Shown here piece by piece: positions 14,339-16,641 of a DNA stretch of 64,000 nucleotides. How positions within the stretch are numbered: position 1 is the stretch's first letter; every line of letters starts with the position of its first letter. Source of the DNA: an uncultured Opitutaceae bacterium (GTDB taxonomy: Bacteria; Verrucomicrobiota; Verrucomicrobiia; Opitutales; Opitutaceae); the NCBI GenBank assembly GCA_937902925.1, contig CALFNN010000070.1, positions 186,001-250,000 of the forward strand, written 5' to 3'. A program made the position numbers and the translations under genes. The notes below the pieces were generated by a model. It made no database searches and was not told where the DNA came from. It saw only the letters and a list, made by a program, of their open reading frames with translations.

Positions 14339-14536
14339 TCCGCGCCATGGATTCGGGTTCGGTCACCTCACCCCAACCATTGGTCTTGCCGCCCTGCGCC
14401 ACCGGATCGGCAAAATCTTTCTCGTTCTCGTAATCGTTCTCTTTCTCTCCACCCTGCTCGCTCGGCCCGAATCGGAGAACGCTTCCCGTGCGTAGTCCGA
14501 CGTGCGACAGGAATTGGGCTTGATCCGTTCCTACCC

Positions 14537-14551
14537 CGGATCGATCCGATC
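14537..14551. promoter_or_regulatory. GATC-dense 15-mer upstream of the methyltransferase, copy 1
   Basis: The 15-mer CGGATCGATCCGATC contains three GATC sites in 13 bp and a GGATCGATCC palindrome. An additional GATC lies at 14522. The identical 15-mer recurs at 15604-15618 inside the methyltransferase gene. As the product resembles GATC adenine methyltransferases, a methylation-sensitive control site is possible; this is inference. Confidence 0.5.
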
Positions 14552-14627: not shown

Positions 14628-14662
14628 CGTGTCCGCCATAGCCTCGGCGAAGGCGGAAGCCC
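14628..14662. repeat. REP-like hairpin overlapping the methyltransferase start
   Basis: TCCGCC (14631-14636) pairs with GGCGGA (14652-14657) in a sequence of the form TCCGCCATAGCCTCGGCGAAGGCGGA. I recall such phrases as common extragenic repeats in several phyla. The GTG start codon (14629) lies at its edge, so the first ~12 codons are repeat-derived. Confidence 0.45.
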
Positions 14663-15840
14663 GTCGAAGGGCCGCCGCCGTTCCCACGGACTACCCGACT
14701 CACGACGACATCTTCCGTCCCGCCGACGCCATCGTCGCCGACGACACCCCGGGCATCCTGCAGCCGAGCCGCCTCGCGTGGAGCGACGACGCCCGCGGGC
14801 TCTACCTCTACCACGGCGACTGCCTCGAGGTTATGGACACCATCGCCACCAAGCACCCCGACGGCGTCTTCGACCTCATCTTCGCCGACCCGCCCTACTT
14901 CCTCTCCAATGGCGGCATCACCTGCCACGCCGGCAGGATGGTGAAGGTCGACAAGGGCGGCTGGGACAAATCCCGCGGCCCGGCACTCAACCACGAGTTC
15001 AACACCGCGTGGCTCGAACGCTGTCAGCGCCTGCTCAAGCCGCACGGCTCGCTCTTCGTGAGCGGCACCCACCACATTATCTTCTCCGTCGGCTTCGCGA
15101 TGCAGCAGCTCGGGCTGAAGCTGCTCAACCAGATCACGTGGCAGAAGCCGAACCCGCCGCCGAACCTCGCCTGCCGCACCTTCACGCATTCGACCGAGAC
15201 CGTGCTCTGGGCCGCGAAGAACGAGAAGAGCAAGCACCGCTTCAACTACGCCGACATGAAGCGCGCCAACGCCGGCAAACAGATGAAGGACGTGTGGACG
15301 TTCACCGCGCCGAAGCCCGACGAGAAAACGCTCGGCAAACATCCGACGCAAAAACCGCTCGTGCTCCTCGAACGCATCCTGCTCGCCGCGTCGAACTCCG
15401 GCGACTTCGTGCTCGACCCCTTCATGGGCAGCGGCACGACGGCCATCGCGTGCGTGCGGCTCGGGAGAAAATTCGTCGGCATCGAGCAAACGCGAATCTA
15501 CGTCGAACTCGCCGCGCTTCGGCTCGAAGCCGACTCGTTCACGCTCGTCGCGTGCGTAAACGTTTTCGTGAAGACTCAAAATGATCTTGAACTGTCCGCG
15601 GAGCGGATCGATCCGATCTCAGCGATGTCCACCCCGGGCTCGCCACCACACGACTGTATTTTTCACGAGACGAAGTTCGTCTTCCTCTCGTGCGCGCACG
15701 TGAGTCACGCGAGCATCGTCCACACGACGCTCAACGTGACGCTGCAAGAAGCCTGGGCGCACGCCCCCGACGGCAAAAAACGCGAGACGACGCACATCGT
15801 GCGGTGTGAGACGGAGATTCTGCGGGTGAAATCAAGTTGA
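14629..15840 (+). CDS. Type II beta-class adenine DNA methyltransferase, DpnA/M2.DpnII-like
   Basis: The order is that of a beta-class amino-methyltransferase: catalytic motif DPPY (residues 87-90, within FADPPYFLSNGG), the target-recognition region, then the AdoMet motif DPFMGSGTT (263-271). Extended stretches match my recollection of pneumococcal DpnA, which methylates adenine in GATC: DPPYFLSNGGI, VDKG.WDK, ITWQK.NP.PNL.CR, FTHSTET.LWA.KN, GKQMKDVW and GKHPTQKP. The start is a GTG at 14629; the frame is open from 14524 (KKKKH-rich) but has no ATG. Residues ~305-403 are an extension not present in DpnA and of unknown role. The stop abuts the ATG of the DpnI homologue, so the two are probably cotranslated. 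Specificity for GATC is inferred from homology only. Confidence 0.92.
   Translation: MSAIASAKAEARRRAAAVPTDYPTHDDIFRPADAIVADDTPGILQPSRLAWSDDARGLYLYHGDCLEVMDTIATKHPDGVFDLIFADPPYFLSNGGITCHAGRMVKVDKGGWDKSRGPALNHEFNTAWLERCQRLLKPHGSLFVSGTHHIIFSVGFAMQQLGLKLLNQITWQKPNPPPNLACRTFTHSTETVLWAAKNEKSKHRFNYADMKRANAGKQMKDVWTFTAPKPDEKTLGKHPTQKPLVLLERILLAASNSGDFVLDPFMGSGTTAIACVRLGRKFVGIEQTRIYVELAALRLEADSFTLVACVNVFVKTQNDLELSAERIDPISAMSTPGSPPHDCIFHETKFVFLSCAHVSHASIVHTTLNVTLQEAWAHAPDGKKRETTHIVRCETEILRVKSS
15604..15618. repeat. GATC-dense 15-mer inside the methyltransferase gene, copy 2
   Basis: Exact repeat of 14537-14551 (CGGATCGATCCGATC), located in the extra C-terminal part of the methyltransferase. One more GATC is at 15583. 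The two copies bracket the DpnA-homologous core. Confidence 0.7.
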
Positions 15841-16641
15841 ATGGCGAGGTCCACGGTGATCTCGTCCCCGCGGATGAATCTCCGGTTGTCCGCGCTTTTC
15901 GCCGAGGGCTACAAGAGCCCGTCGCAACGCGCGCGTCGCGTCACTGAACCCTGGGGGGCAGAAAACCTCTATTGTTGTTCGTGCGCGTCGGACGACCTCG
16001 ATTCGTTGCCGAACAATGCGCATGTTTCAGATCTCGTCTGCCCCGACTGCGCCGAGCGCTACCAGCTGAAGAGCCAGAGTAAACGAATCGGAGGGAGTGT
16101 GCTCGGTTCGAACTACCGAAAGATGCTCGAAGCCATCGCCGCCGACCAAACACCGCATTTCTTTCTACTGCATTACCAACTTCCGGCGTGGTTGGTGCGA
16201 GACCTGATGCTGATTCCGAAATTCACCATTACGAACTCGGTCATCCTCCCGCGAAAACCATTGGGCGAGACCGCGCGTCGCAAACATTGGCAAGGCTATA
16301 CGCTCAACTTCAGTCTGATTCCGGACGCGGCTAAGATTTCGCTCGTGGCGGCCGGAGTAGAACGCGATCCGGCGGCAGTCCGGGCAGACTTCGCACGAAT
16401 CGCGCCGGTGCGTGAGATGAATACGGACCAACGCGGATGGACGCTCGATGTGCTTCGCTGCGTGGAGAAAATTGGCGCGGCCGAGTTTACAAACGACCAA
16501 GCTTACGCATTCGAGGGGCGCTTGTCGGCACTTCACCCCGGCAATCGACACGTGCGCGACAAAGTTCGCCAACAGCTCCAAGTGTTGAGGGATTTGGGGT
16601 TTCTTGAGCATGTCGAGAGGGGACGCTGGCGTCGAAGGTAG
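15841..16641 (+). CDS. DpnI-family endonuclease homologue with Glu-to-Gln change in the catalytic motif
   Basis: DpnI cuts GATC only when its adenine is methylated. The 266-residue product aligns end to end with DpnI from memory: YKS.SQ.AR..TE.W near the N-terminus, a zinc site (C45..C48 and C67..C70), the PD-(D/E)XK core, RKPL..TARR..W.G, and the winged-helix end (RGWT..L.C..KI, EFT, RQQLQ.LRD). DpnI's catalytic residues are D53, E64 and K66; the matching residues here are D64, Q75 (codon CAG) and K77. Some active nucleases have Asn or Gln at related positions, so activity cannot be excluded. The ATG at 15841 directly follows the methyltransferase stop; the ATG at 15874 (MNLRLSALF) gives a better match to DpnI's N-terminus. 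GC is visibly lower than in the neighbours, suggesting transfer. Confidence 0.93.
   Translation: MARSTVISSPRMNLRLSALFAEGYKSPSQRARRVTEPWGAENLYCCSCASDDLDSLPNNAHVSDLVCPDCAERYQLKSQSKRIGGSVLGSNYRKMLEAIAADQTPHFFLLHYQLPAWLVRDLMLIPKFTITNSVILPRKPLGETARRKHWQGYTLNFSLIPDAAKISLVAAGVERDPAAVRADFARIAPVREMNTDQRGWTLDVLRCVEKIGAAEFTNDQAYAFEGRLSALHPGNRHVRDKVRQQLQVLRDLGFLEHVERGRWRRR

Follow-up and report, generated by a model that had tools for sequence, protein, structure and literature searches.

We describe a locus in a 64,000-nucleotide stretch of DNA from an uncultured Opitutaceae bacterium (GenBank assembly GCA_937902925.1, contig CALFNN010000070.1; the whole stretch is called the window here), which belongs to a draft genome of 6.0 Mb in 105 contigs. 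There, a gene for a predicted GATC adenine methyltransferase (M) lies directly upstream of a gene for a DpnI-family nuclease (R). DpnI- and DpnII-type systems are textbook examples of mutually exclusive enzymes, and a first-pass annotation of this DNA had flagged the pair as apparently self-destructive. At the level of sequence this paradox is genuine, as R has the DpnI residues for recognising methyl groups and GATC, and M probably acts on GATC. Our preferred, though still tentative, reading is of a nuclease cassette that depends on methylation and silences itself, in which a GATC-rich element found before both genes, and perhaps a small protein, S, would hold the nuclease in check. The features concerned, in window coordinates, are as follows.

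14520 to 14551, forward strand: P1, a GATC-rich promoter-like element, TTGATC-N13-GATCGATCCGATC, before M (pattern search, conservation).
14629 to 15840, forward strand: M, a beta-class N6-adenine DNA methyltransferase, predicted to be GATC-specific, with the S tail fused in frame (PF01555, tree).
15587 to 15618, forward strand: P2, the second copy of the element, TTGAAC-N13-GATCGATCCGATC, in the 3' part of the M open reading frame (ORF) and six bases 5' of the S ATG (pattern search, conservation).
15625 to 15840, forward strand: S, a 71-amino-acid R-linked protein that is the C-terminal tail of M and has its own ATG behind P2 (survey, substitution rates).
15857 to 15866, forward strand: a conserved stretch, TGATCTcGTC (TGATCTAGTC in seven of 11 R loci), with one further GATC, just 5' of the R start (sequence comparison).
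15874 to 16641, forward strand: R, a DpnI-family nuclease of 255 amino acids with a PD-(D/E)XK domain, a winged helix and the residues D53..Q64-L-K66 (Pfam, PDB, PADLOC).

The methyltransferase-nuclease pair is conserved in Opitutaceae

We surveyed 252 Opitutaceae genomes for M (called at E <= 1e-40), R, S and the element, with G387 and G594, and likewise G428 and G388, taken as the same genomes and each counted once. R of the window's clade is present in 11 genomes and M in 17. In seven of the 11 R genomes (the window's, G169, G330, G411, G428, G513 and G593) an intact M stands directly upstream of R, in the same order throughout. This degree of co-occurrence exceeds chance (Fisher p 5e-7, kinship ignored) and bears out the annotation's claim that a methyltransferase-nuclease pair exists. 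By contrast, the suggestion that the pair forms a new kind of system requiring both partners finds no support, since R occurs without M in four of its 11 genomes and M without R in ten of its 17. The four R genomes without M are G018, G424, G430 and G594, with completeness of 100, 79, 98 and 93%, respectively; an M gene elsewhere could have escaped detection, above all in G424 and G594. Among the ten genomes with M only, the G408 contig stops at M and that of G491 ends less than 1 kb behind it.

Outside this clade, we examined the retrieved loci of 12 more distant DpnI homologues (7-19 kb in 11 cases, 4 kb in one), and this M was absent from all of them. A match to PF06044 was found in 15 of 387 sampled genomes of the phylum, 14 of them above the cut-off. 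Viral contigs yielded no relative of S or R, phage records a single partial winged-helix match, and plasmid records R in two gonococcal records of 2.17 Mb only. A search of titles and abstracts in the open-access literature turned up no description of the Opitutaceae locus.

All three genes are under purifying selection, as judged by the ratio of non-synonymous to synonymous substitution rates (dN/dS) calculated with our own Nei-Gojobori script over the nine closest pairs per gene: 0.14-0.26 for the M core, 0.04-0.15 for S and 0.05-0.13 for R, where dS is high.

A GATC-rich element is duplicated within the locus

P1 and P2 share the window consensus TTGAWC-N13-GATCGATCCGATC, and the 14-mer GGATCGATCCGATC occurs in exactly two copies in the 6 Mb assembly. 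In the form TTGNWC-N13-GATCGATCCGATC, the pattern has 25 sites in 18 of the 252 genomes, compared with none for a reversed-pattern control, and 23 or 24 of these sites lie at M, R or Dam loci. Each of the seven genomes with both M and R has the element twice, once before M and again before the R unit (14 sites). It also stands once before R in G424 and G430, once before M in four of the ten M-only genomes (G406, G408, G491 and G075) and, read by eye, once before apparent truncated remnants of M in G155 and G590. A single copy in G419 has too little left around it to judge, and one in G431 looks by eye like chance.

Stretches of 70 bp around the 14 elements of the seven M+R loci hold 4-6 GATC sites, compared with 0.24-0.43 expected, and P2 has three GATC in all seven genomes. 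P1 and P2 are read in different frames within these genomes, so it is the DNA itself that seems to be conserved. In most copies a start codon follows about 5-6 nt behind the element, a spacing that would fit leaderless transcripts. In most relatives the codon about 5 nt after P1 is a GTG, which has become GGG in the window genome (14552-14562), where the first usual in-frame start of M is the GTG at 14629.

The tail of the methyltransferase is linked to the nuclease

The last 71 codons of M, which constitute S, are absent from M-only enzymes. We found S in nine of the 252 genomes, all of them with R; the 241 genomes that gave no R gave no S either. The S ATG is present in all seven M+R genomes, and in each of these the M frame continues into S without a stop, whereas both other frames are interrupted by stops. 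In the R genomes without M, G018 keeps residues 5-70 of S but not its ATG, G594 has only the last 30 residues, and S was not found in G424 or G430. If G018 is counted as intact, S is intact in seven of seven R genomes with M and in one of four without (Fisher p 0.02, kinship ignored). S has no match in Pfam, NCBIfam or PADLOC.

That S is a domain needed by M is unlikely, as it was found in none of the ten M-only genomes, although the contig ends in G408 and G491 could hide a lost R or S. The most plausible view of S is of a protein that works with R or controls it and is at the same time joined to M. Lying before R and linked to it, S may be compared with the small neutralising protein of a toxin-antitoxin module. 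In G424 an unrelated 69-amino-acid ORF with CxxC pairs (L066:9026-9232, minus strand) takes up the place of S between a P1-like element and R; it possibly replaces S, and its Pfam matches all lie below the cut-off.

The nuclease retains the methyl-GATC-reading residues of DpnI

The annotation had described R as homologous to DpnI over its whole length, and it is: R matches PF06044 (178 bits) and PF17726 (92 bits), both far over their cut-offs, as well as, over residues 10-265 of 266, PDB entry 4esj (190 bits) and also the PADLOC model 'Type II methyl-directed restriction enzyme' (234 bits). The claim that zero bases separate the M stop from the R start has to be revised. The ATG at 15874 aligns with Met1 of DpnI and with the start codon of ten relatives, nine with ATG and one with GTG; it is probably the true start, rather than position 15841, which came from the ORF call. 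Six of the seven M+R genomes, the window's among them, then have a gap of 33 nt, and in the seventh it is 30 nt. The apparent junction arises because an 11-codon extension of R happens to be open in the window, while in the other six genomes an in-frame stop interrupts it.

We compared residues of the catalytic domain using the roles described for DpnI in PMC4117772. The comparison left out loci L014-L016, which are fragments, and L024-L026, in which only the winged-helix part matched; L023 and L027 were examined separately, and L022, where R is split by a frame break, was included up to the break and omitted from the R tree. Q18, N48, D53, K66, R126, L129, R135, W138 and G140 are kept in all 11 members of the clade. 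S17 is serine in nine and alanine in two, and D78, a main-chain contact, is glycine in all 11. The winged-helix domain, described in DpnI as separately specific for methylated GATC, is kept at the domain level. From these conserved residues, we infer that R would recognise fully methylated GATC. The annotation's alternative of a shifted specificity in one of the partners finds no support for R, and is less likely for M.

The position that departs from DpnI is Glu64 (Q75 in the annotation's numbering), which binds the site-1 metal in DpnI (PMC4117772) and is glutamine in all 11 members, so that the catalytic D-X(n)-E-X-K pattern retains D53 and K66 but has Q in place of E64. Glutamine is also found here in one of the 12 other DpnI homologues (L022, the locus with the frame break). 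Mrr- and MspJI-type nucleases are described as using (D/E)..(D/E/Q)XK sites (PMC3874153), and a 'PD-QXK' nuclease variant is named in PMC11037411. Since D-QXK is known in other nucleases, Q64 would lower but need not abolish catalysis; the substitution may weaken R. The annotation's suggestion that the nuclease no longer cuts is possible, but the change is clade-wide and the variant is known among nucleases.

If R were dead or strongly weakened by E64Q, it might now act, as the annotation had also suggested, as a reader of methyl-GATC, for example as a repressor or marker at the P1 and P2 clusters. We regard this as rather doubtful. A reader would suit the loss of a metal ligand throughout the clade, the GATC clusters at both start sites and the retention of the winged helix. 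However, D53 and K66 are invariant, as selection for catalysis predicts, and the glutamine variant is in use in Mrr- and MspJI-type enzymes. Moreover, R also persists in four genomes that yielded no M, where M's mark would give a reader little to read.

The methyltransferase is probably specific for GATC

The M ORF encodes 403 amino acids and matches the N6_N4 DNA methylase family (PF01555, 191 bits), with the motifs DPPY and DPFMGSG. DPPY and DPFxGxG are kept in all 17 Opitutaceae M proteins, with DPPY preceding FxGxG. Among solved structures, M best matches CcrM (190 bits), with H. pylori DpnA scoring lower (112 bits), and its best NCBIfam model is again CcrM, at 222 bits, far under the cut-off of 830. 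M is 54% identical to M2.LlaDCHI over 240 residues. In a tree whose comparison set did not include pneumococcal DpnA, the Opitutaceae enzymes are set against all six others with a support of 0.998, and, read by splits, a division of moderate support (0.876) places them on one side with M2.LlaDCHI and two further plasmid-borne M2 enzymes, and CcrM on the other. The annotation's description of M as closely DpnA-like holds as a statement about the family.

LlaDCHI is a 5'-GATC-3' system (PMC4190342); its plasmid bears a Dam-family gene, M2 and a DpnII-family nuclease (PF04556). A further indication comes from two Opitutaceae genomes. In G181, a P1-type element precedes a Dam-family gene (TIGR00571, 248 bits, cut-off 115), which BLAST does not match significantly to M; a DUF6996/6997 protein is encoded next. 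In G406, a DUF6996/6997 protein lies directly behind M; it is 34% identical to its G181 homologue (E 1e-40) and matches the PADLOC model REase_II (137 bits). That two unrelated methyltransferases share the same element and the same kind of probable nuclease suggests a single specificity, GATC. On these grounds, M probably methylates the adenine of GATC.

The two DUF6996/DUF6997/DUF7226 proteins (L107:6260-7297, behind M in G406, and L163:1787-3046, minus strand, behind Dam in G181) have no assigned function in Pfam and probably represent a family of GATC-specific type II nucleases.

An escape from the conflict would be open if M methylated another sequence, such as GANTC, the target of CcrM, or a longer site, with R a stand-alone methyl-GATC nuclease that came to lie behind M by chance. 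The scores of M against CcrM speak for this, as do the genomes that hold only one of the two genes, but we think it unlikely: the tree sets M with M2.LlaDCHI and, at moderate support, apart from CcrM, GATC-rich elements precede both M and a Dam gene with a related partner protein, and S and P2 tie M to R in all seven genomes that have both.

A model for self-silencing

Control that couples M and R is suggested by the two elements in each of the seven M+R genomes, by the clustering of GATC within them and by the precedent of Pectobacterium, in which the methyl-dependent restriction endonuclease PcaRCII is silenced via promoter methylation by M.PcaRCI (PMC8989522). In the cassette that we propose, M would methylate the adenine of GATC and R would be a DpnI-type nuclease recognising the fully methylated site, the two coexisting because parts of the locus hold the expression or activity of R down. 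P2, with its three tightly clustered GATC, would be a copy of P1, M's own element; methylation of P2 by M would keep the S-R unit off, while P1 would let M regulate itself. S, being both the tail of M and the product of the first gene of the S-R unit, would perhaps add a further level of control over R. If M were lost, inhibited or diluted, P2 would become unmethylated and R would be made. R might then destroy whatever DNA is still methylated, or an R-only lineage might become established that, like a DpnI strain, restricts foreign DNA bearing the methyl mark.

A more speculative extension, to which we give distinctly less credence, is that the locus serves in abortive infection or as an addiction device: the mark itself would encode the off-switch of the nuclease, and the guard, S, would be joined to M, so that failure of M would free both locks. 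A phage or accident that blocks, degrades or dilutes M would then bring about the destruction of all marked DNA, host and phage alike, inverting the logic of restriction-modification. If promoter methylation is the lock, the locus would amount to a built-in, heritable form of the two-locus silencing in Pectobacterium and a simple circuit triggered by the failure of a methyltransferase. With an intact conserved pair, a defined element and a defined small protein, the coexistence of opposed methylation systems is directly testable here.

Several observations weigh against the self-silencing cassette. P1 is missing from six of the ten M-only genomes. The element has no convincing -10 hexamer, and the term promoter-like refers to its position and TTGA box. 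A single deletion of the shared ORF could remove S together with M. S has no recognisable fold: one of five structure models reached a predicted local distance difference test score (pLDDT) of 81, the others 53 or less, and there was no PDB match below E 0.5; the M-S model had a pLDDT of 40, and no inference was drawn from either set of models. The support for joining M with M2.LlaDCHI is moderate, and the same split places the gonococcal DpnIIB-like enzyme and the methyltransferase of L023 on the side of CcrM. The metal ligand lost in all 11 R proteins means that R may be weak or dead. Finally, three R genomes (G018, G169 and G424; loci L137, L138 and L139) bear short Dam-like D12 genes, which score 63-82 bits where the cut-off is 115; if these methylate GATC, they would pose a further conflict.

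The same parts could instead form a toggle, with cells either M-on and R-off, with methylated GATC, or M-off and R-on, with GATC unmethylated, as a one-locus version of the pneumococcal DpnII/DpnI alternative. Matching elements before both genes would suit such a switch, each state would be self-consistent, and the DpnI/DpnII split is said to shield pneumococci as a species against phages of either kind (PMC3573125). We nevertheless hold this to be quite improbable, as passage from the methylated to the R-on state would cut the chromosome unless methylation were diluted first, and we noticed no invertible or slipping repeat, without having made a systematic search for one.

The nuclease persists in genomes without the methyltransferase

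R is intact in all four genomes without M, including G018, a single contig that is 100% complete. Read by splits, the R tree places these four on separate branches: G424 beside G169 (support 1.0), G594 inside the G513/G593 group (0.871), and G430 and G018 each on a branch of its own (neighbouring splits 0.753-0.908). Traces of M are found in three of them. In G430, a deletion apparently joins the first codons of M to the sequence before R, and G018 and G594 have lost all of the M-S frame but 3' remnants. The G594-G593 pair of R genes has a dN/dS of 0.05, the other R-only pairs being too divergent to estimate it well. Of the 252 genomes, 20 have a strong Dam gene (PF02086, E up to 1.2e-30, a threshold of our own), and none of these is among the 11 with R, but the number is too small to test exclusion.

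On this evidence R does not need M for protection. An ordinary restriction-modification pair, in which R now cuts unmethylated GATC and M protects the host, is accordingly very improbable in spite of a gene order and co-occurrence that resemble a type II pair and the different putative type II nuclease behind M in G406, because such a nuclease should not survive the loss of M and because the DpnI methyl-pocket residues that we checked are invariant.

Relation to known systems

Like the DpnI and Drg type IIM nucleases (PF06044 and PF17726), R has two domains over its whole length and a catalytic domain with the same residues for reading methyl groups and GATC, but its clade has Q for E64, and seven of its 11 members lie directly behind an intact methyltransferase. 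M, in turn, groups with M2.LlaDCHI (at the moderate support given above), but in contrast to M2.LlaDCHI and M2.DpnII (DpnA) it has neither an adjoining DpnM nor a DpnII nuclease, carries the S tail and is partnered by a DpnI-type protein.

An adjacent pair of a DpnI-type and a DpnIIB-like gene is already known in gonococci, as drg and dpnIIB (NgoAXI; PMC4269198, record L117). There the order is reversed, with R first and the methyltransferase close downstream. The DpnIIB-like gene of Neisseria gonorrhoeae (L117:4992-5729) is 59% identical to M and has an in-frame stop in the record compared. In a methylome study of 25 gonococcal strains, GATC methylation is reported only in the two strains with dam replacing the nuclease gene (PMC6789123).

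PcaRCI and PcaRCII likewise combine a methyltransferase with a nuclease aimed at its own mark. The Pectobacterium case involves cytosine, CCWGG, an HNH nuclease, separate loci and one promoter site, whereas the Opitutaceae locus involves adenine (as predicted), GATC, one operon and a three-GATC element copied before both genes. By analogy, the latter would have the parts for silencing of the PcaRCII type within a single operon, provided that M is GATC-specific and P2 a promoter.

Winged-helix nucleases offer a further comparison. Aba4572I, in which a PLD nuclease domain is joined to a winged helix, lies by an amino-methyltransferase predicted to make its substrate, and possible self-restriction has been noted (Helbrecht 2024, PMC11037411). 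Like R, it is a methyl-reading winged-helix nuclease beside a methyltransferase, but its nuclease domain differs, and the available part of that report describes neither a duplicated element nor a tail protein. According to the same source, 87% of more than 1,000 winged-helix fusion proteins have no methyltransferase within three genes, the adjacent N4-methylcytosine or N6-methyladenine enzymes cited for the PD-(D/E)XK type are frameshifted, and tight control of expression is proposed as a way of avoiding such conflicts. Within our own set, L023:3473-5213 contains a methyltransferase sharing 49% identity with M and, behind it, a protein that has a C-terminal DpnI-like winged helix and, by eye, an apparent PLD-type nuclease domain; this looks like a second arrangement with the same apparent conflict.

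Tetranucleotide frequencies in the window

Avoidance of GATC as an escape from the conflict can be set aside, as the 390 GATC sites of the window come close to the 439 expected. No GTAC occurs in the window (positions 1-64000; 67 expected), which made a GTAC-specific M a candidate; we rejected it because the tetranucleotide is equally depleted in four genomes that yielded neither M nor R. GTAC is likewise missing from 20-kb samples of these four (G091, G271, G140 and G459), and is near expectation in others such as G088 and G560. Loci L120, L121, L125, L129 and L133 concern the same pattern, which is independent of M and R and suggests a GTAC-directed process of some kind in Opitutaceae. CTAG is also rare in the window, with five sites observed and 52 expected.

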